Below are positions 18,291-60,845 of a stretch of 64,000 nucleotides of DNA, one piece after another (position 1 is the first letter of the stretch; every line of letters begins with the position of its first letter). The position numbers and the translations under genes are program-made. The notes below the pieces were generated by a model that saw only the letters and a list, made by a program, of their open reading frames with translations, was not told the origin of the DNA and ran no database searches. Source of the stretch: Isoetes taiwanensis (lineage: Eukaryota; Streptophyta; Lycopodiopsida; Isoetales; Isoetaceae); assembly GCA_021234155.1 (NCBI GenBank), contig JAJEKV010000146.1, positions 496,001 to 560,000 of the forward strand, in the 5' to 3' direction.

Positions 18291-19174
18291 AATTCAACCC
18301 AGACGAGCATTACGTTTGTTAATTTCCGGCGGAGGAATTCTGCCAGAAACGTTTTGAGGCGGCGCCGCCATCCCAGGCAGTGCACGTCCAGTGGAATTCC
18401 TCCGGTCCGGAAATTATCTAATACATAATAGGGAAATTTACCAAAATAACCTTAATTGTTGACTTAATTCCCCAAAAGCCCTTCATATTTTTGAAATTCC
18501 CAAAATGCCCCTAATTCTTAAGTATTTTCCCAAATAGCGCTTTGTATTTTAAAAATCAACAAAGAGCACGTTTTTACAATAGACGATAGGAGAAGTGTTT
18601 GTTATGATGACAATAATTTGGAAAAAAAAAATAGAAACCATGGCATTATGACAAAAATATACAACGTAAATGTCAAATAGGATTTCTACAACCTAGATGG
18701 GGATAAAGCTCTCGACGTTGTCGCCGAAAAATAATAGCAACAACTGCGTAACCGCAAAGGAATTCTAACATTGCCACTTTACGCACGAACATGTTTTAGA
18801 CTCAATATTAACCATAAATTATCGTTCTGTACTTTGTACTTCAAATATAAATGCATCAGAAGAAAGTACTATGTACCTTCTAGCTCGTCTAGTGACCTTT
18901 GTAATATGTCATTGAGCATACGTAGCAGCTTCTCCACAAGATGCCACAAACCTTCTCCACACGATTCTTGTAAAAGCATTCAGCTAGTTGTCTTCGAATT
19001 ATTTCTAGCATTGAAATGATAGGTTTATCTCTAGCGTCAAGAAGCCAAGAATTTAAAGCCCTGTAAAGAATGATCATGTGCGTGCTTTTTGGTGATTTTT
19101 AAAATACACGGGGGTTTTGGGATAATACTTAAGATTTAAGGACATTTTAAGAATTTTAAAAATACGAAGGGCTT

Positions 19175-19340
19175 TGTTGAGAAATGAGCCTTCTATGATT
19201 GGGTGGACAAGCTGGGGATCGAACCCAGGACCTCTTGCTTGCAAGCCAAGTACTCTACCACTGAGCTACCGGCCCTTTGATGGGCTTTCGGTACTCTTCC
19301 ACTGAGACATTCTTCATGTGTGCCCATTACACATACTCCA
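19175..19340 (-). repeat. TRIM 3' LTR
   Basis: About 166 bp, nearly identical to the other LTR without its 58-bp duplication. It begins on the minus strand with TGGAGTATG, so it lacks the first dozen bases of the 5' LTR. Confidence 0.85.
19204..19275 (-). tRNA. tRNA-Ala(UGC)-like sequence inside TRIM 3' LTR
   Basis: The same 72-nt sequence as in the other LTR with one change in the acceptor 3' side (CTTGTCC). Both internal promoter boxes and anticodon TGC are kept. Two aligned copies at the same LTR position show that the tRNA-like part belongs to the element. Confidence 0.7.
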
Positions 19341-19397
19341 TTCCTCCTTAATGGGCACACCAATCCATTCCAGCCTTCACCACAATCCACATGCTTC

Positions 19398-19775
19398 CCT
19401 CCTCGGGCAACTCCACCACTGCGGGAGTTGGACTTTCCACTGGCCTCTCACCCCTACACCACTGGGGAATATCCCGATGCGGGCAACTCCACCACTGCGG
19501 GAGTTGGACTTTCCACTGGCCAAGCTTTGCTCATTCTCACCCCTACACCACCGGGGAATATCCGATGCGGTTAAGCACCCTCTACTGGGACGCACCCTGC
19601 AAGGGAGTTGGACTTTCAGCGGCCAAGCTTTGCTCATTCTCACCCCTACACCATTTGGGAATATCCCGATCGCGGGCAACTCCACCACTGCGGGAGTTGG
19701 ACTTTCCACTGGCCAAGCTTTGCTCATTCTCACCCCTACACCACTGGGGAATATCCCGATGCGGTTAAGCACCCT
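19398..19775. repeat. Tandem repeats in the TRIM interior
   Basis: Units of about 85-95 bases repeat three to four times: GGGCAACTCCACCACTGCGG, then GGAGTTGGACTTTCCACTGG, CCAAGCTTTGCTCATTCTC, then ACCCCTACACCACTGGGG. One unit is a variant with CACCCTCTACTGGGACGCACC. Open frames seen here only follow the repeat period and are not genes. Confidence 0.85.
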
Positions 19776-19784
19776 CTACTTGGG

Positions 19785-19802
19785 ACCATGGCTCTGATAC
19801 CA
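19785..19802 (-). other. Primer-binding site for initiator tRNA-Met
   Basis: On the minus strand it reads TGGTATCAGAGCCATGGT, complementary to the 3' end of plant initiator tRNA-Met. It starts directly after the LTR end CAACA, as is usual for TRIM and copia-like elements. It fixes the strand of the element. Confidence 0.9.
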
Positions 19803-20035
19803 TGTTGAGAAATGAGCCTTCTATGATTGGGTGGACAGGCTGGGGATCGAACCCAGGACCTTGAGAAATGAGCCTTCTATGATTGGGTGGACAGGCTGGG
19901 GATCGAACCCAGGACCTCTTGCTTGCAAGCCAAGTACTCTACCACTGAGCTACCGGCCCTTTGATGGGCTTTCGGCACTCTTCCACTGAGTCATTCTTCA
20001 TGTGTGCCCATTACACATACTCCAACATTCCAACA
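19803..20035 (-). repeat. TRIM 5' LTR
   Basis: 233 bp on the minus strand, beginning TGTTGGAATG and ending CTCAACA. It is longer than the other LTR (about 166 bp), mainly because a 58-bp segment is tandemly doubled (19,805-19,862 repeated from 19,863). The duplicated part covers the 3' half of the tRNA-like sequence. Confidence 0.85.
19888..19959 (-). tRNA. tRNA-Ala(UGC)-like sequence inside TRIM 5' LTR
   Basis: A 72-nt cloverleaf can be drawn: acceptor GGGCCGG with CCTGTCC (five Watson-Crick pairs, one G:U, one C-U mismatch), D arm TAGCTCAGTGGTAGAGT, anticodon loop CTTGCAA (anticodon TGC) and T arm CTGGG-TTCGATC-CCCAG. The third acceptor pair is G3:U70, the identity mark of alanine tRNA. 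The A box TAGCTCAGTGG and B box GGTTCGATCCC match consensus, so RNA polymerase III could start here. Its position inside an LTR, the mismatch and a weak G-G pair in the anticodon stem argue against a normal host tRNA gene. Confidence 0.7.
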
Positions 20036-20230
20036 GGCTTTTTGGGAATTAAGTCAACGATTAAGGTTATTTTGGTAAATTTCCCTATATTTTGATACTT
20101 TGATAATTTGGAACAACGTTTTAACATGTTCTCCAATGTAAGGCACAGTAATAATAATATATATATAATGAGAAGAACAAATCAAGTGCCTAGTCCAGAC
20201 CAATATCACTTGGATCCGATCTGATGTGAG

Positions 20231-23200
20231 ATGCACTCCCCCTCTCTCTCCTCCGCCCTGCCGGAACAAAAACCTTCAACTTTAGATCTACCCAACAAGG
20301 TTCATAATGGGGGTCAACGAAATGAGGAAGCAGACCGGCTTGTAACAGCTGTTGAACCTGGAACTCTAATCAGAGGCGATGATTCCTCCTATATTGCTGT
20401 CAGAAGACTGTTGCTGTATCGAAAGGCGCTTGCAGGCAACCTTTCTCGCCAGGTAATTGCCATTAGAATACTTGGTAATCTGGTTAACAACATATAGCAC
20501 ATACAATGAGAAAAAAGATTGCTTTTCAACGTTCTGCTTTGCATCTTTATCCCGTCAAAACAGCTCAGATAAGTAATTACATATGATATATACGTATTGG
20601 CATATGGAATGAAATGAAAATGGTTTTATACAGGGCTGGCAATGCAATGGAAATGGCTACAACACCTATAGACATTTTATACACAGTTTGAAGCAGTGGG
20701 ATTCTGCACAACCTGTAACCCCTCGCAGTGAAACAGTGAATAGGTGCGCTTTTCTTTGACCGCAACTAATTTTCTTGCTATTAATTTCTTGTTCCATTTT
20801 CAATTCCGTGTTAACACACAGCACTCCATGGGATTCACCTCGAAGAGAATCCCCTCTAGACTATTATGCAAGTAGTGAAATTTCCATCAAGGTGTTTGGC
20901 TCTAATCCATCTTTTGGCAAATTACATTCAATTAAAATGTTAGTTCATAACTTTACATTTATCTATTCAGACAAATAACTCCAGTCTTAGGTCAAGTCCG
21001 GCGCATCAAAAATCTATCACAAATGGGAACGAACCACCCTATTCATTCGTAGGAATGCATTGCCTATTTGATGACTGCAAAGCCTCAGGTCAACAGTTGA
21101 TCTTAGATGTTTATCCAGAATTGCCAGGATTTTTCTATTGAAGTATTCTACTGTGTGTACAGTTAATGTCATCAAGTTTGCACATTTGAGCCTGGACTTG
21201 CTAGCATATGCGGCAACAGATGGGACTCTCACTATATGTTCAGTTTCTGAACCACCACATATCCTTCAAAATTTGGAAGGCCATACCAAAGAAGTTACAG
21301 GTAATTACGCAAGTTGAACTTTACAATAAAACTGTCATTGGGAGAATGACTTTACAATTTGGGACAACTGTCTATTCAAGTTTTTGTCTTGGAACTGGCT
21401 GGTATTTTTTTAAATTCTATTGTATATGTTGCCTTTCAGGAAAAGACGGCCAGATGGATCTGTTATATTCTACATATTGATGATTGATTGTCCATCTAAT
21501 GTACTTCTTACTTTTCAGATGTTGATTGGTCTTGTAATAACCAGTATATATGCTCATCATCTATGGACAAAAGTGTTAGAGTATGGGATGCACACAAGGG
21601 AACTTGTATTCGAGTTGTGTATGACAATTCTCCCCAAACTTGTATTCGCTTCAATCCTGTGAGTTGGGCATGATTTTTTTGGATTGCTAGTAATCAAATC
21701 TCAACGAAACGTTAACCTAGAAGATTTAATGTCTGCTGCGGACACGAATCTAGCAATGCTGTTGTAACTACTTATTCTAATCTTTGTGATTCTACGCAGG
21801 TTAACAACAATTTTCTTATTGTTGGATCTGCTAACAAGGCAGTTAGAGTAAGTATTTCTCCATGCCTGGTTTGCTCTAATTACATTCATTGTGTTGCTGA
21901 AAATCTATGTTTGATCGCGAATTTTAAGGCAAAACTTATCTATTAAAATAATCAATGTCAGGAAAGGGCTTATTATTCATTTTATGTGTAGAAAACCTTC
22001 TGGTAAAGTATTGCTAGTGTGTAACAGTGGCAAGGCAACTCATTTAATATACTTCATCTCATGAACCGATAATATTTCTATTCCTATATATTTCCCCCTG
22101 CCTCAGAGCGAATACCACAAGTAGCTTGCAAACTTTAGCACTGGATGATGCCATATGATATCTCATTAGTAATGTATAAGATGCGTTATGCAGCTCAATT
22201 GACAAGGCAACTGCAGTGGCTGCATTTAATAATACATCTCGTGAATGGATGATGTTTTTATTCTCTAGTCCCCATTATTTCTTCTCTTTTCCTGTGAGGC
22301 ATCTGATTTTTAATCTCCAAAATTTGGTAAAACTTTGCCTCAGGGTTTTCTAGTATTGTTGCAAATGAAATGTTCTTGGCGCATTTGGATTTTCCACATT
22401 TAGCACTGGACGATACTATCTGGTATCCCATTAGTATTGTTACATCCTTTGGACATACATGCACCTATGTCATGGCAACCGTGGTGGCTGCATCTAGCAT
22501 GTGGTTTCACCTTATGAACTGATAACATTTCTTTCATATAGTTCTTTTCTTTTCTCTGTGAGACATCTCAATATTGTGTTTGGCAATCTTCAAAATCTGG
22601 CATAAATTTGTCTCAGGACTTTTAAAAAAGAGCTTGTTGCAAAATGATGAATTCTCAGAGGCGAATGACACATTTAGGTTATCAACTTTAGCACTGGACG
22701 ATGTCTGCATAAGATATCTCTTGAAAGAAACATCACAGCAATGGATGTTGAACCTTCAGGACGGATCACTTTTGCTGGGGACTCCCAGGTGATTTCAGGT
22801 GCTATTTCTCTATTATGTCCATTGAAGGCAGTATTATAATTTGATGTTATATCAGGGTTGTGTGCACAGTCTTAAAGTGGACTTGCAAACAGCAAAAATT
22901 TCACGTATGCACAAAAACCATGTGGGATTATCTCGTAAGTCAGAGACAACAACAGTGCAATTTAGATCCTTCTCTAACCTTGCTGGTGGACCTGTGTTGC
23001 TAGTCGCTAACCAGGATGGGAGTTTGAGGTTTTTCAGGTAGCTTATTGTTTCTTCTGGATTGGATCGACCCAAATCTAAACTATTTGGTCATTTTTCTTT
23101 GTAGTGTCGCATTGAAAGTTGATGGATATTTGACTTTGAGATGTTCATTGCACTTGTCTCCACATGCAAGAAAGATACGAGCTTCGTTCTGCCCATTGCT

Positions 23201-33897: not shown

Positions 33898-34968
33898 TTA
33901 CTGAAACAAAGTGCGCACAGTCTCCCAAGCAGCTAGAAACCCATAGTCTCCCAAGCAGCTAGCAACCCCTTGAGGAAAGAAGATGTATGGAGAAAGTGGA
34001 TAGAATAATGCCCATGGGAGGAATGGCTTAATGGATGGAGAGCCAAAGGAAATGCACATCTGTAAAGACTGGTGAATGAGACGCAGACCTGGAGAATTAT
34101 CAGCATTATTTAGAATCCGCCATATGAACTTAGAAATCAGCACCTTGCTCTGGAGAAGAAAGTGAATCATCTCCAGCCCCCCACAAAGTTTAGGCATAAT
34201 GCACTTCGCCCAACTAATTTTAACATCAGCTCCTTCTTTAGTGACACCCCAGATGAAGTTCCTGATAGTACGAACAATGAGCTGCATCTTTCTCTGCGGT
34301 GCCAGTAAGATGGATGCCATATAGACATATGTACCACTCAGAACTGACTTTGCCACAGTTACACGACCAGCCATGGATAATTTAGCCGTGGACCACCAGA
34401 ACAAATGCCTTTCCAACCCCTTAATAATGACATCCCATGCGTCCCTAGATAAGAGGTGTATACCAACTGAAATGCCCAGAAGCCTAGTTGCCTTCCCATG
34501 AGGAAGAACCTTCCATGGAAATGCAACCATAGAAGACAGCACTGGAGAGTCTAGGGCCCAGAAGGCAGTACACTTTTGCCATCCCACAAAGATACCAGAA
34601 GTCGGAGAGAAACTGTCCAACAAGGAAATGGCATTCTGCAAATTTTGCTCATCAGCCATTAAGAACAAGAAAGTGTGATCTGCCTACTGATTACAAATCT
34701 CTTTCGAACCATTATTCATAGGAAGACCATGCAGGATGCCTTCTTGCATTGCAAGAGAGAATACCTGAGAAAGAATCTCTGCCACAATTGTAAAAAGCAG
34801 CGGTGCCAAAGGACAGCACTGGCGAATGCCACGTCCCACCTGAAAAATGTCAATGGTTCTCCTTGAAAAAGAACTGAAGAACGAGCAGAATAATGAAGTT
34901 TCATAACGTCTGTTGCGAACTGGGCACCAAAACCAAGACGTAAAAGGCACTGCTCCAAGAAACTCCAA
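33898..34968 (-). pseudogene. LINE ORF2: RT catalytic core and thumb, broken
   Basis: Continues the RT: GIRQCCPLAPLLFTIVAEIL. Where the YADD catalytic box should be, the text is NQ-stop-ADHTFLFL, so the Tyr codon is a stop and the second Asp is His. The element is certainly inactive. Downstream TRLLGISVGIH, LSMAGRVTVAKSVLSGTYVY and IRNFIWGV are the usual thumb motifs. Confidence 0.85.
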
Positions 34969-36730
34969 TCAACACTGTCATATGCTTTTGCAAAATCCAG
35001 CTTCAAGTATACAATGGGGTAACCATGCATTTTAGCCCAATAGAGACCCTCATATGCTGCTGCCACATTACTCAACCGGCGAGGCAAGAAACTTGACTGT
35101 GTGGAAGAGATGGACTCAGTAAGCACACCACAAAGCTTCTGAGCAAAAACTTTAGCAAAGATCTTGTACATTGAGGACAACAAGGTAATGGGGCCCCAAT
35201 CTGAAATGGAAGAGGGATCCTTACATTTTGGAATAAGGGAGATGCAACTAGAGTTGAGGATTTTGTCCAGGTGCCTCTGTCTTTTAAAATCCCTGAAAGC
35301 ATCATACACATTTGAACCAAGCCAATCCCAATACTCCTGGAAAAATTCCACCGGAATACCATCAAGACCCCGACACTTGCCCCTCTGAGAGAAAATGTGG
35401 CCTCAGCTAAATCATTCTGACTGATCTCAGCCTCTAAAGTGGCCCTTTGCTCATTGATGACTATAGGATGAACCTTAGCGAGCAAGGTCGCTTGAAAATC
35501 TGACTGAAAGGGAAGATGCCGAGCAATGAAGAAAGCTGAAAAGTGATTGTGCAAAAAGCCTCTAAGCTCAGCCGGATCTGAAATAACAAGCCCATCCTGA
35601 ATCTGCAGAGACTGAAGAGATGCAGCTAGCTTTCTTGTTTTGGCAGCTCTGAAGAAAAACCTGTGCACCGGTCTCCCTCCTTAAACCATTGCAACCCAGC
35701 TTTAATGCGAGCATATTGCACTTGTTCAGATTCCATCTGCCGAATGCTACACAAAATTTTCTTCTCCACATGACCATCTGATGTGGCAACAGACCTGCAT
35801 GCCTCAAGTTGTTGATAAAGAGCCAGCAGAAGGCTCCGGTTAGCAAAAGCCCGTTCACGACCCCAACCTTTAGCAAAAGACTTCACAGCAGCGAGAGCAT
35901 CAACAATACCTGCCATGCCCCTGTGCCGAGAGAAAGAAGTGAACCACGCCTGTCTACAACCTGCCAAAGATTCCTCATCCTTCAAGAAAAATGTATTCAT
36001 CTTGAAATATGTCTTAGATACAGCATGCACCACCATATGAGAGCAAGAGAAATACTGTGGATTATGGTCAGAAATCGCAATATTCAACAGGGTTGCTACC
36101 AAAGCATTGTAGTAGCCTCTATCATGTCTTGCATATCCTCTACCACCACCCAACCAGCCATTACACCAAGTAAAACTTGAGGGACCCTCAACTTCTATGA
36201 AGCCACAATCTTGCATTAAGCGGTGCCATTGCTCCCGTTCAAAGCCCTGCACTATCTCGGCACCTCTGCCACATCTGTCTTGCTCAAGCTCGACCATGTT
36301 AAAATCACCCACCATGATCCATGCAACAGGGGAGTCTAACCTCAGTAATTTGGAACGCAAAGAAGCCCGTAATGCGCCTCTCTGACGTGGTCGATTATGC
36401 GCATATACATTAACCAATCCCCATTCTTGCCCCTTATCAAACCGCTTGATTATGATCCACCGGCCAAATCTGTCAACCTGAGTAAATGACACTGTAATAG
36501 TCCTCCTCCATGCTATAAGGACACCAGCCTTTGCCGAGTCTGCGGCCGCCACAAGAACATTGTACTGCCTATTGATTATTGCAGCAACTTTATGGGCATC
36601 CTCTTTCTTGCATTTATGCTCTTGCAAACAAATGAAATCTGAGTCCCACCTAGCCAGGGCCATGGACAACCTACTCCTTTTAGTAGGGGAGGAGGCAAAC
36701 CCCCCGCACATTCCAGGAGATTAACTTCAT
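34960..36730 (-). pseudogene. LINE ORF2: endonuclease and N-terminal reverse transcriptase
   Basis: Starts near 36,730 with LISWNVRG, changes frame, and continues DSDFICLQEHK, WIMVGDFNMVE and AISDHNPQYFS, the signature of the APE-type endonuclease that nicks target DNA. After a break near 35,650 the RT follows: SCISLIPKCKDP, DWGPITLLSSMYKIFAKV and LKLDFAKAYDSVDWSFLEQ (first catalytic Asp kept). A frameshift near 34,860 leads to GIRQCCPLAPLLF. Confidence 0.85.
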
Positions 36731-48159: not shown

Positions 48160-49066
48160 TTTTTTTTTTTTTTTTGAAGGACGAAAGCCAAAAAGTTTAT
48201 TAATCAGGGAAATAGTACAAAATTTACATGTCTCATCTAACTGTGTAAGCACAAAAAGATGCCACAGGAGCACGAGCCTGGAGCACAATGTACTTACTCC
48301 AGAAAAGGAGACTAATGATAAGAATCAATTCGAAGATACTGAATCCAAATGAGTTCTGATTCAAGGGAAGAACACTCGTAGGCTATCAATATCTTTTTCT
48401 GGGCCACCGTAATAACACTGTGTGCAGATGAATAAATGCCCTAAAAGATGTGGTGTCTGCGACGCTCCCATATCAACCATAGGAGCCAACCGGAACCAAG
48501 ATGAAATGCCCTTTGTTTAGCTGGAGGACATGCGTTGGGATAGGACGGCAAAAGGATGCATCGGCAGTTCAATGTACTGTTAAACAAACCTTGTAGCCAG
48601 GACCACGCTGGTTGAACCTCAGGACAATCAAAGAGACAATGCTCAAGAGTCTCAACGTCTGAAAGACAGAGCGGACATATTGCAGATATGCGAAGATCAT
48701 AGCGATGTCGAAAGGCATTAACTCGCAGGCACCTGTGGATAACCTGCCACCACAGTACAGAGACTTTAGGGTGGAGCAACCTATCCCAAAGCCATCGCCA
48801 TCTACAACACAAAGTGGGCTGTGGAACCTGTAGGTGCCACCCATCTGGCAACTGGAGGGGTTGTGGTGCTAAAAGAAGGCCATATACTGATCTGACAAAT
48901 TGCTTGCCTTCGTGAATATTTTCATGATAGTCCCATGGCACCCTTTCAGCAACACTAACTTGCACTATAAGAGGCAAATTTTCTGCGACCTTCTCCCATA
49001 GAGGTACGTCCCAACGAGAGAGCAAGAACTTTGCCTGAAATTCAGGCCAAGACAATAGGCGACCCG
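48160..49066 (-). mobile_element. 5'-truncated LINE, 3' end with poly(A) and target duplication
   Basis: Minus strand, 907 bp. It starts inside ORF2 and ends ...TTTCGTCCTTC and poly(A) (T-run 48,160-48,176). Target copies AATTTAACCAA (48,149-48,159) and AATTTAACTAA (49,067-49,077) flank it with one mismatch. The 3' end matches the ORF1-only LINE at 9,551. Confidence 0.85.
48441..49055 (-). pseudogene. LINE ORF2 C-terminus, zinc-binding RT domain (zf-RVT)
   Basis: 204 open residues with FVRSVYGLLL, WLWDRLLHPKVSVLWWQVIH and the zinc-binding set CPLCLSDVETLEHCLFDC (C-x2-C ... H-x4-C), then WLLWLIWERRRHHIF. This domain follows RT in plant L1 ORF2. The open frame is intact but only the last part of ORF2 was inserted. 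Confidence 0.85.
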
Positions 49067-55106: not shown

Positions 55107-56476
55107 TCATTTGTAGACCTCCACCACACTAGTAGAATCTATAGTTGCTACCACCTCCATCCTTGAGAACCCTCCTTTTGTAACCAGTTTCTGCAGCTCC
55201 CTCAGCGTTCGCTCCCTTCCTCCACTGTTGTATGCCAGCATCAGAAGATCGACTGTTAGTGCCTGTCTTGCCCTTGGACAAGCATTGCTGATTGTTTCTG
55301 GCAATATGGCATCCACTATGATGATCTTTCCATCGTCTGGAAGTGCTTGGTAGCAGTTCTTTAATATACGCTCGCAATGCTCGTCATCCCAATCGTGTAG
55401 AATCCACTAAGACATTCATCAAAATATGAGGTCAAATGCATACAAAAAGAACAAAATAGCTGATTTTACTTGTTTCAATTCTCACCTTCATGAACATTGC
55501 GTCTCCCTTTGGAACACTTTCAAACATATCCCCACCTATGTTTTGCACTCCTATTATACATAAAGCATGAGAGGTAATCTTTTGGATTAACTTAGAGAGC
55601 AAACAAAACTTAGATCATAAGAGAGATTCGTTTGAGTGAGTAGAGAAATACATAAATCGCAAGATGTAATCTTTTTGATAATGTACCTGCCATATGTGGA
55701 GCCTTGGAAACTACGTGAGGTTGATCAAAGTTTATGCCATTGATTGTGGGGTATTTTTTAATAATAGAATGCAAGGAGGCACCAAAACCTCCTCCTACAT
55801 CCACCAAGCTTTTTAAAGTAGAAAATCCACCATATTCCTTTAGTACTAACTTCATAAATAGCCTCGAATGGTTGGCCATAGCAACATTAAACAGATTGTC
55901 TAATCTTGGATCTTCAGCCCCCATTTCAAATGCACTCTTTCCATGAGCTTTCTTGAATGGTGACACCCCATCTAATATCGCATCTTCCAAATATAACCAT
56001 GATTTCATGAAAATGGGATCGGTGTTCATGCAGATCAATGGCCCCAAACATACACCTTCCTCATCTGGGGCCAGATATTTACCACTTGGAGTAAGCTTGT
56101 ACCTACGATCTGAATGCCCATCCTTCTCAATCACAATTTCTTCAAGAAAACCTCTACTAGCCAAAGCACGGAGTAACCTTTCTAAATTCAAATGGCCGAC
56201 TTCATTGTATTTCACAACTGATATCTGTTTTAAAATTTCTTTAGCATTCATTCCCTGATCTATGTTTGCGCCAATTAATTTCTCCCTTTTTGCGAGAATC
56301 TCGGGAACGCCAAGCCTAATTATAGCTCTAAGTGCTAGTGGCAACGAGATAATAGTTGACATCTCATACACTAATAATCTTGTTTGATCTATCATTGATG
56401 TTCCTCGATGGTTCACAATTAAATCTGATTCTTTGCTTGATTGCAATTGTCCATTTTGTAGCAGTTCCATTTGCAC
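55107..56476 (-). CDS. COMT-type S-adenosylmethionine O-methyltransferase
   Basis: Three exons: 56,476-55,687; 55,550-55,486; 55,406-55,107; 384 residues, phases fit. It would transfer a methyl group from S-adenosylmethionine to a hydroxyl of a phenolic, as in lignin or alkaloid pathways; the substrate cannot be told. N-terminal dimerisation part: LALRAIIRLGVPEIL and LERLLRALASRGFLEE. SAM-binding motif LVDVGGGFGASL (residues 224-235), then INFDQPHVV and VQNIGGDMFESVP. Catalytic-type His 289 in WILHDWDDEHC; Asp 317 (IIIVDAILPE) stands where many relatives have Glu; Glu of GGRERT is kept. Exon 2 is only 65 bases. No damage visible. It faces the bHLH gene tail to tail. Confidence 0.92.
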
Positions 56477-58734: not shown

Positions 58735-60845
58735 GTACATACTAACATTCCATCAGAAAAAGAGTAAGGTTGATCATCCTTCGAAGTTTCAAGATTGGAG
58801 ACCCATATCCCTAACAAACACTACCTATAAGCTTTGTGCCAAGATCATTGCCTTAAGAGTTAAAAGCTTTCTTCAAAGAAATATTAGTCCAAATCAATCT
58901 GCTTTCCTTCCTAATAGATATATTTTGGATAATTATGTGGCTGCTATGGAAGGTTTGCATTGGAACAATATCTCTAATCAAAATTGCATTCTTCTTAAGT
59001 TGGACTTCAAGAGAGCTTTTGATTCTGTGAGATGGAATTTCTTAGATTTTGTCATGCTAAAATTGGCTTCCCTCCTAAGCTTATTAATCTTATTCATGGC
59101 TTGAATGCTAGATCGAATTTCAGCTGTTCTTATCAATGGTGTCCCTTCTGGATTCTTTCCTCTCTCTTGTGGGGTTAGACAAGGCTGTCCTCTTGCCCCT
59201 TATCTATTTTTAGTAGCTGCTGAACTTCTAACCAAGGTCATTATACATTATCAGAATACTGCTCAAATAAAGGGCTTAAAACTTCCAAATTCTCATGATA
59301 GCATTACCATTCTCCAATATGCTGATGACACCTTATCATTCCTTGATGCTGATTTGCCAAACATTAATCTTTTCCTCAAGATTCTCAGTCAATTTTTCGC
59401 TGCCTCTGGCATTCATTTAAACTTGAGTAAGAGTATGATTATTGGAGATGTCAATACTCCAATTCTAGCTGGTATTAATGTTCTTCCTTCCAATCAGGCA
59501 ACTAAATTATTGGGTATGCCTCTCTCTATGAATCATAGCATCAAAGGTCTTTGGGACCCTATTCTCCAGAGAATTAAAAAGAAGCTGAATAATTACAGGA
59601 ATTATCTCTCTCTTGCTGGCAGATCTATTATTGCTAATGTTGTTCTTGCTAGCTCTCATGTGTACTTTTCCACAGCCTTAGTTGCTCCTAAATGTGTTTA
59701 TTTGGAGCTTAGAAACTTCATTTGGGAATTCTATATGCAAGCCAAAATCTTCTGGTGGTTTAGGCTGCAAGAATCTTTTCAGACAAGCTCAATCTCTTGC
59801 TGGAAAATTTATTTGGAAAGCCATTCATGGAAATCTTTCCCCTGCCTGCTATTTCATCAGATATTGGATTACCCCGAGTCATCCTTATGGGCATCCCTCT
59901 ATTCAGCACTTGCTTCCTCACTCTGCTTTCAATCAATTAAAACCAGCCTCTAATATCTCTCCTCTTATGCGTAATCTCATCAAGGCTTGGAATGCTATCT
60001 CTCTTAATTTCCAATTCGTTTCTAGAGATAAGCTTCATGTTGAAGCTCCAATTTTCTGGAACCCTCGATTGACTGAGCTAAATTCTCCAGTTCTTGCTAT
60101 CAAACACCCTAGAATCTATAAGAAATGGCATGAGGCTGGTTTAATTTATCTTAAAGACCTCTTTATTGATGGGAGAGTCATCTCTTGGACTAGATTGAAA
60201 GGTATTATTAGGGGCACTTTATCTGATAAGAAAATTTATTCTCTCATCAAACCTTTTCTCTCAAACTTAGCTCTCAATTCAGATGGAAATGATTGGACTA
60301 TAAATGGGAAAGGGGTCTACAAAGTGAAGAATGTGTATAATGCTATGTCCTCTTTCATAGATGATTGTAAAGCCATGTTGAAATGGTCCATTAGTCATGA
60401 TCAGCTTAAGAGTCTTTTCGATAATGTTTGGAATTCTTATTGTCCCCCGAAAATTTCTTACTTCATCTGGCTTCTTGCTAATGGTAGTCTGAACAACTTG
60501 GTCTCTGTGTCTAAAAGAAATCCTAACATCTCAACAAATTGTCCTTTGGCTTGTAACAGACTTGAGGATATGTGTCATATTTTCTTCTGTAGCAAATTGG
60601 ATGATTTTTGGACTTGGATTGCTGCTAAATTTGGCATTGTAATTAATGGGGATCTTCTGTCCCTTATGCAACATGATGATAAATTTGTCAACTCTATTAT
60701 ATACATTGCCCTATGGAACATTTGGAAAGCAAGAAATCGAGTGTTATATGGTCATAAGAATCCATCCAACTTCTGGATAAAGATGCACTTTCAGTTTGAT
60801 TTTGAGACTATTGCAACTGCTCATAAAAAGAAAATTTGGAGCTAA
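58735..60845 (+). pseudogene. LINE ORF2: reverse transcriptase and zf-RVT
   Basis: RT landmarks: DWRPISLTNTTYKLCAKIIA, LKLDFKRAFDSVRWNFLDF, CGVRQGCPLAPYLF, LQYADDTLSFLD, KLLGMPLSMN and YRNYLSLAGRSIIANVVL. After a frame change near 59,730: WTINGKGVYKVKNVYNAM, ISYFIWLLANGSL and a zinc-binding stretch CPLACNRLEDMCHIFFC, ending KKKIWS. The catalytic YADD is kept. A stop or shift near 59,104 and one near 59,730 break it; the endonuclease is absent by truncation. Confidence 0.85.

Follow-up and report, generated by a model that had tools for sequence, protein, structure and literature searches.

The window analysed here, a stretch of 64,000 nucleotides of Isoetes taiwanensis (contig JAJEKV010000146.1, positions 496,001 to 560,000), carries a TRIM without recognised coding capacity whose two LTRs each contain a sequence resembling a tRNA-Ala(UGC) gene. 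It is a new family of Helenus, a class into which it is placed by the description of the class rather than by sequence comparison to the Selaginella member Helenus-1_SMo. Comparison of LTR pairs within and between family members indicates selection on the whole 72-nt tRNA-like part, which is the new aspect of the present analysis, and the copy in the window has probably been moved by Pol III transcription from this part together with the enzymes of a helper element.

Anatomy of the element and its tRNA-like part

The target copies GGCTT, two LTRs, primer-binding site of the tRNA-iMet type and purine tract, by which a preliminary description had recognised the element as a TRIM, were all located in the sequence. 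The features are as follows (window coordinates).

19175..20035, minus strand: whole TRIM (Helenus-type), 861 bp; its sense strand is the minus strand
19170..19174: target-site duplication GGCTT, left copy, from sequence
20036..20040: target-site duplication GGCTT, right copy, from sequence
19803..20035, minus strand: 5' LTR, 233 bp, composed of an LTR of the 177-bp type and a 56-bp duplication of the LTR end
19803..19858, minus strand: duplicated LTR end, 56 bp, with a second box B
19888..19959, minus strand: tRNA-Ala(UGC)-like sequence of the 5' LTR, 72 nt (ARAGORN; Rfam RF00005, 62.3 bits)
19942..19952, minus strand: box A of the 5' LTR (TAGCTCAGTGG), from sequence
19900..19909, minus strand: box B of the 5' LTR (GGTTCGATCC), from sequence
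19844..19853, minus strand: extra box B inside the duplicated LTR end, from sequence
19978..19993, minus strand: stretch resembling box A and D-arm (TGACTCAGTGGAAGAG) that precedes the tRNA part on the sense strand; judged by eye, it may be a partial duplicate
19790..19802, minus strand: primer-binding site (PBS) TGGTATCAGAGCC after the 5' LTR, from sequence
19403..19756, minus strand: internal repeat of four 85-nt units (repeat family D1)
19341..19349, minus strand: polypurine tract (PPT) AAGGAGGAA before the 3' LTR, from sequence
19175..19340, minus strand: 3' LTR, 166 bp, without the first 11 bp of the ordinary LTR
19204..19275, minus strand: tRNA-Ala(UGC)-like sequence of the 3' LTR, 72 nt (ARAGORN; Rfam RF00005, 59.9 bits)
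19258..19268, minus strand: box A of the 3' LTR, from sequence
19216..19225, minus strand: box B of the 3' LTR, from sequence

Read on the sense strand, the element starts with TGTTG and ends with CAACA, and its PBS is of a type that we take to match the plant initiator-Met tRNA. The window copy is atypical, having a duplicated 5' LTR end, a trimmed 3' LTR and an amplified interior repeat, two of whose four units are just 62-65% identical in ungapped register. Ordinary copies of the family measure about 547 bp, with 177-bp LTRs and an internal part of about 193 bp, and the 24 elements of our first set of loci (set 1, described below) that have exact target copies range from 531 to 697 bp. The LTR length of 166 bp given in the preliminary description is that of the trimmed 3' LTR and differs both from the ordinary length and from the 233 bp of the window's 5' LTR. 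The longest open reading frame of the window copy (159 aa, antisense) had no Pfam match at E up to 1.

The tRNA-like nature of the LTR sequence was recognised by two programs. ARAGORN predicted a tRNA-Ala(TGC) on the minus strand at 19202-19275 and at 19886-19959, and the Rfam model RF00005 was matched over its full length in both LTRs (62.3 bits, E 9.2e-13, and 59.9 bits, E 4.1e-12), which against a gathering score of 29 places the tRNA match far beyond chance. Boxes A and B, described earlier as fitting the consensus, were located in each LTR of the window. Among 70 LTRs of set 1, ARAGORN reported a tRNA in 64 (62 Ala-TGC, 1 Val and 1 Thr) and none in six. The anticodon TGC and the G3:U70 pair seen in the window are thus features of the family: the latter is G-U in 89 of 92 LTRs and G-C in the other three, and both are retained, together with A73, in most copies. 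These three features confer alanine identity on a tRNA. The 72-nt sense-strand cloverleaf that had been drawn for each LTR fared less uniformly, being borne out by the full-length covariance match and contradicted at two positions that are mispaired in nearly all copies, C5:U68 (paired in 0 of 90 LTRs) and G31:G39 (paired in 1 of 92), in canonical tRNA numbering. Other stem changes in the 92 LTRs were mostly one-sided, C-to-T or G-to-A, and compensatory base changes worth claiming were not found among them. Minimum-energy folding of the tRNA-like sequences did not return the cloverleaf and was no better than that of shuffles (z 0.44 and 1.20).

The kept anticodon, G3:U70 and A73 would suit an element that supplies its host with a working tRNA-Ala. 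Such a role is very improbable, given the two mispairs, the 190 pattern matches to the ordinary tRNA-Ala core that the host genome already has, and the identity of just 0.743 between the tRNA part and the nearest host tRNA outside the family. This nearest tRNA, out of 18 used for comparison (20 were taken, and two resembling the TRIM family were left out), is an Ala(AGC), followed by Ile(TAT) at 0.724 and Ala(TGC) at 0.720; 95% of the identities between host tRNAs of different amino-acid types lie below 0.693, or below 0.728 with the two family-like tRNAs kept. The comparison with host tRNA-Ala genes, proposed earlier as a check, therefore yields a tRNA-Ala as best match without singling out a source tRNA, the Ala(TGC) standing third behind Ile(TAT). 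A tRNA-Cys query sequence gave no match in the genome, and one tRNA-Cys was found otherwise.

Some observations on the host tRNA genes were made along the way. Among the matches listed (100 of 190), ordinary tRNA-Ala genes were clustered on contigs C926, C232 and C66, and an unusual T-arm, GGGATCGATACCC, occurred in the two that were extracted (L139 and L140). Genes resembling tRNA-Lys were clustered on contigs C38, C318, C431, C550, C777 and C986 among the matches listed (100 of 126), where CTT and TTT types by eye often alternate at a spacing of roughly 1 kb.

Copies across the genome and known relatives

Two sets of family copies were assembled. Set 1 comprises 40 loci, including L001, from a DNA search (97 matches; 40 of 380 candidates scored). 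Set 2 comprises 60 copies from 100 of 157 matches to the junction of LTR end and PBS, with members of set 1 left out; it was picked by LTR end and PBS alone, blind to the tRNA part. The junction occurs at these 157 places genome-wide with up to 3 mismatches and a 40-nt core of the tRNA part at 295, and the reversed-pattern controls gave 0 in each case.

Besides the window copy, exact 5-bp target copies were found at 24 of 30 two-LTR units in set 1 and at 7 of 29 in set 2. Further genomic copies with target duplications, as called for in the preliminary description, are hence present and represent insertions with independent target duplications. Two elements, L014 and L015, are identical across 547 bp and have different target copies, which demonstrates recent transposition of the family. 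L023 and L035 have their target copy and flanks in common, are 95% identical over the whole stretch and look, from their sequences, like one insertion that has been duplicated. At some loci, e.g. L006 and L008, three LTRs stand in tandem.

The tRNA part was at least partly present, at the same place and on the same strand, in all 60 copies of set 2. Four or fewer of its 72 positions were missing in 55 of them, and 8 to 37 positions in the other five (L087, L100, L105, L110 and L115). Box A was identical to that of the window in 38 of the 60 copies and had at most one change in 47; for box B the respective counts were 35 and 54, so that the boxes have decayed in some copies. Neither of two outcomes named beforehand as counter-evidence, a tRNA part absent or randomly placed in other copies and the loss of both Pol III boxes in all of them, was thus encountered. 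In six divergent copies (L065, L077, L097, L108, L109 and L111) the D-arm is of a different, CGATGG type (in L065 it reads CGAGCTGG) and the stems have changed, with the middle stretch around TACTTGGCTTGCAAGCAAGAGGTC nearly unchanged.

Exact matches to the tRNA core outside the earlier sets were sampled as well (20, drawn from 100 of the 295). All 20 lie in LTR sequence of this TRIM family, 14 of them in a near-complete LTR, and three of these 14 are solo LTRs with exact target copies; a free-standing progenitor gene or SINE was not seen among the 20. The tRNA-derived SINEs, which have a tRNA head with Pol III boxes as the TRIM does, lack LTRs and a PBS, end in a LINE-type tail and have target copies of variable length. 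The Isoetes TRIM differs in its LTRs, PBS, PPT and integrase-type 5-bp target copies, by which a tRNA-derived SINE is ruled out, and in the position of all 20 sampled cores within LTRs.

The statement of the preliminary description that no described TRIM carries a tRNA was mistaken, since the Helenus class, defined by Kojima 2024 (PMC10886601), consists of TRIMs with tRNA-derived LTR sequence. According to that paper, Helenus occurs in fungi and animals and, among plants, in the lycophyte Selaginella moellendorffii alone; 5-bp target copies accompany the fungal and plant elements, and Pol III transcription of Helenus, a class known from sequence alone, was proposed there as an unproven possibility. 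TRIMs have also been reported in Selaginella by Gao et al. 2016 (PMC4717578), in whose available text a tRNA is not mentioned. To the extent of the searches made, Isoetes taiwanensis is the second plant with Helenus, after Selaginella, both being lycophytes; Helenus in Isoetes was not found in the literature searched, of partial coverage and exclusive of Repbase.

The window TRIM resembles Helenus in being shorter than 1000 bp and non-coding, with two LTRs and tRNA-derived sequence in both, and its family does so in the conserved boxes A and B, the PBS and PPT at the ends of the internal part and the 5-bp target copies. Helenus-1_SMo of Selaginella has an LTR of 120 bp and an internal part of 85 bp, as compared with 177 bp and about 193 bp in the Isoetes family (PMC10886601). 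The Ala-TGC type is found here and in Puccinia triticina, where Helenus-4_PTrit makes up 133 of 137 predicted tRNA-Ala-TGC genes (PMC10886601); automatic counts of tRNA genes in the I. taiwanensis genome would likewise include LTR copies of the present family.

The likeness to Cassandra drawn in the preliminary description was substantiated, insofar as a plant TRIM has a small RNA gene with an internal Pol III promoter inside its LTRs, and tandem arrays are known from both. The RNA gene is a 5S rRNA in Cassandra and a tRNA in the Isoetes TRIM, for which an Rfam search of 18900-20300 (E up to 1) gave two tRNAs, one sub-threshold tmRNA and no 5S rRNA. Ajax, a TRIM of nemerteans, shares the presence of a small-RNA-derived promoter sequence in its LTRs and differs in being an animal element with a partial 5S rRNA (PMC10886601). 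With its hundreds of LTRs and its recent activity, the Isoetes family provides a plant system for testing the Pol III proposal made for Helenus.

Evidence of selection on the tRNA-like part

The two LTRs of an element come to differ after its insertion, while a comparison of different elements also takes in changes that occurred in their sources. This reasoning, which supposes that mutation followed the same patterns before insertion as after it, was applied to 56 elements, 26 of the 40 set-1 loci and 30 of the 60 set-2 loci; the remaining 14 loci of set 1 were dropped for not having exactly two near-complete LTRs, and the remaining 30 of set 2 for having no second near-complete LTR. Since set 2 had been selected by LTR positions 164-177, these were excluded.

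Within elements, the tRNA part (0.0503) and the LTR flanks (0.0486) had diverged equally. The excess between elements, i.e. the divergence of the source lineages, was 0.0115 in the tRNA part versus 0.0514 in the flanks, a ratio of 0.22 (bootstrap 0.11-0.36). The ratio was 0.23 without L035, 0.30 (0.16-0.51) in the 30 pairs of set 2 alone, 0.04 (-0.03 to 0.12) in set 1 alone, 0.26 (0.12-0.43) without LTR positions 41-76 and 0.14 (0.03-0.29) at A/T sites alone, which are not prone to methyl-cytosine decay. The whole tRNA-like part hence appears, by this comparison of sequences, to be under purifying selection in the source elements.

Within the tRNA part, the excess relative to within-element divergence was 0.26 (0.05-0.57) for the 21 sites of boxes A and B and 0.22 (0.09-0.40) for the remaining 51 sites, with 0.15 (-0.02 to 0.41) between the boxes and 0.31 (0.09-0.63) in the acceptor stem, whereas the LTR flanks gave 1.06 (0.77-1.5). 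Constraint outside the boxes is thus about as strong as inside, so that selection may act on more than a Pol III promoter. The LTR-pair test points to a function that maintains the tRNA part and to a maintained unit that extends beyond boxes A and B.

These values bear on the reading in which the tRNA part entered one LTR by chance and has since been carried as a functionless passenger. A free-riding sequence would be copied with its LTR, close copies can mimic conservation, and positions with shared variants are not depleted in the tRNA part (13 of 72 versus 18 of 91 outside, p 0.84), a count that mixes inherited and post-insertion changes and draws on per-position data from 92 of 100 LTRs. 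Source-lineage divergence that is 4-5 times lower than in the adjoining LTR, at equal post-insertion decay and likewise when only set 2 or only A/T sites are considered, makes such a passenger highly unlikely; the single insertion duplicated with the LTR, which had been raised earlier as an objection, is disfavoured by the same ratio. The LTR-pair method superseded both the shared-variant count and an earlier per-site divergence from set 1 only, which had been 0.0136 in the tRNA part versus 0.0374 and 0.0414 on either side.

The anticodon arm has the lowest raw divergence within the tRNA part and was considered as a special signal, e.g. a palindrome serving as a dimerisation site. This candidate was dropped, as post-insertion differences are low there too and much of the low divergence is accordingly mutational.

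Transcription, mobilisation and elements with the same primer-binding site

From the sequence and by analogy with Cassandra, we infer that Pol III transcription, which the preliminary description had put forward as one possibility, is the best explanation for the way in which the element is expressed. With the internal boxes A and B as its promoter, Pol III would start shortly before the tRNA part of the 5' LTR and would read through the element into the 3' LTR or the flank. The element RNA would then be primed at the PBS by initiator-Met tRNA, and the enzymes of an autonomous retrotransposon would copy, package and integrate it, giving rise to the 5-bp target copies. A promoter downstream of the start site would lie within the RNA and so be restored in both LTRs at every round, and the R-U5 copy within the 3' LTR could still serve for strand transfer. 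For Cassandra, the transcript ends inside the 3' LTR, as summarised in PMC10886601.

Several features favour Pol III: boxes A and B are retained, the reference LTR has neither TATA nor AATAAA, the element is small, T-runs are scarce, and Cassandra offers an analogy. A CAA, at which transcription of plant tRNA genes often begins, stands at LTR position 73 and shortly precedes the tRNA part. Sense-strand runs of four or more T are absent from 24 of 25 elements, which is weak evidence, as only about 0.5 runs per element are expected from dinucleotides and shuffles and A-runs are depleted too; avoidance of Pol III terminators was accordingly not retained as a claim, the scarcity being consistent with it and not significant. 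The reference LTR has no T-run, which makes read-through into flanking DNA likely. Counting against a pure promoter is the spread of the constraint beyond boxes A and B; further points against the Pol III reading are the mispaired positions, folding no better than that of shuffles and the shared-variant count.

The even constraint across the tRNA part, with ratios of 0.22 outside and 0.26 inside the boxes against 1.06 in the flanks, would also be expected if Pol II transcribed the TRIM and the tRNA-like sequence or fold were selected in the RNA for export, stability, dimerisation or packaging into helper particles. We regard this as rather unlikely: the reference LTR has neither TATA nor AATAAA, the Pol III boxes would be incidental, and the mispaired positions, the lack of covariation and the failure of single-strand folding to give a cloverleaf speak against a selected fold. 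It is likewise conceivable, with a fairly low probability, that the whole tRNA part is selected as a unit beyond the Pol III promoter, as a tRNA mimic at the start of R acting in processing, export, dimerisation or particle loading; its retention in Selaginella and Isoetes could mean that this solution is old and remains in use.

As to the enzymes required for movement by Pol III transcription, we infer a helper of Copia type, which the PBS and the 5-bp target copies fit. Three elements with Copia-like ORFs (by eye) in the same genome use the same PBS as the TRIM.

A search for other tRNA-bearing LTR families with this PBS, using the pattern box B, LTR end and PBS, gave 271 matches (control 0), and the sampled ones had no clear tRNA, so that this candidate was rejected. 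In 20 examples outside the window family (L044-L063, from 100 of the 271), ARAGORN found no tRNA in 19 and a doubtful intron-bearing tRNA in L044; most had by eye just a T-arm-like hairpin, and ORFs read in three of the 20 had the look of Copia gag or integrase, again by eye. Patterns that added box A gave 2 and 1 matches, each a member of the window family; one form of box A was fixed in these patterns, and their last gap fell short of the family's ordinary spacing. The LTR of these 20 elements often ends in a hairpin that resembles a T-arm and agrees with the box B consensus GGTTCRANYCC, and in one hairpin type the sequence continues, right before the PBS, with GCTCTGATTCTAACAT, which presumably resembles the 3' end of the initiator-Met tRNA. 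Box B followed by AACA, any nucleotide and the PBS occurs at 107 places, versus 1325 for AACA, any nucleotide and the PBS alone.

Elsewhere in the window, ORFs with reverse transcriptase, endonuclease/exonuclease and zf-RVT domains at 34716-36711 (minus strand), 48441-49055 (minus strand) and 59105-60845 (plus strand) look like LINE remains, and an ORF at 55610-56476 (minus strand) has O-methyltransferase and dimerisation domains.
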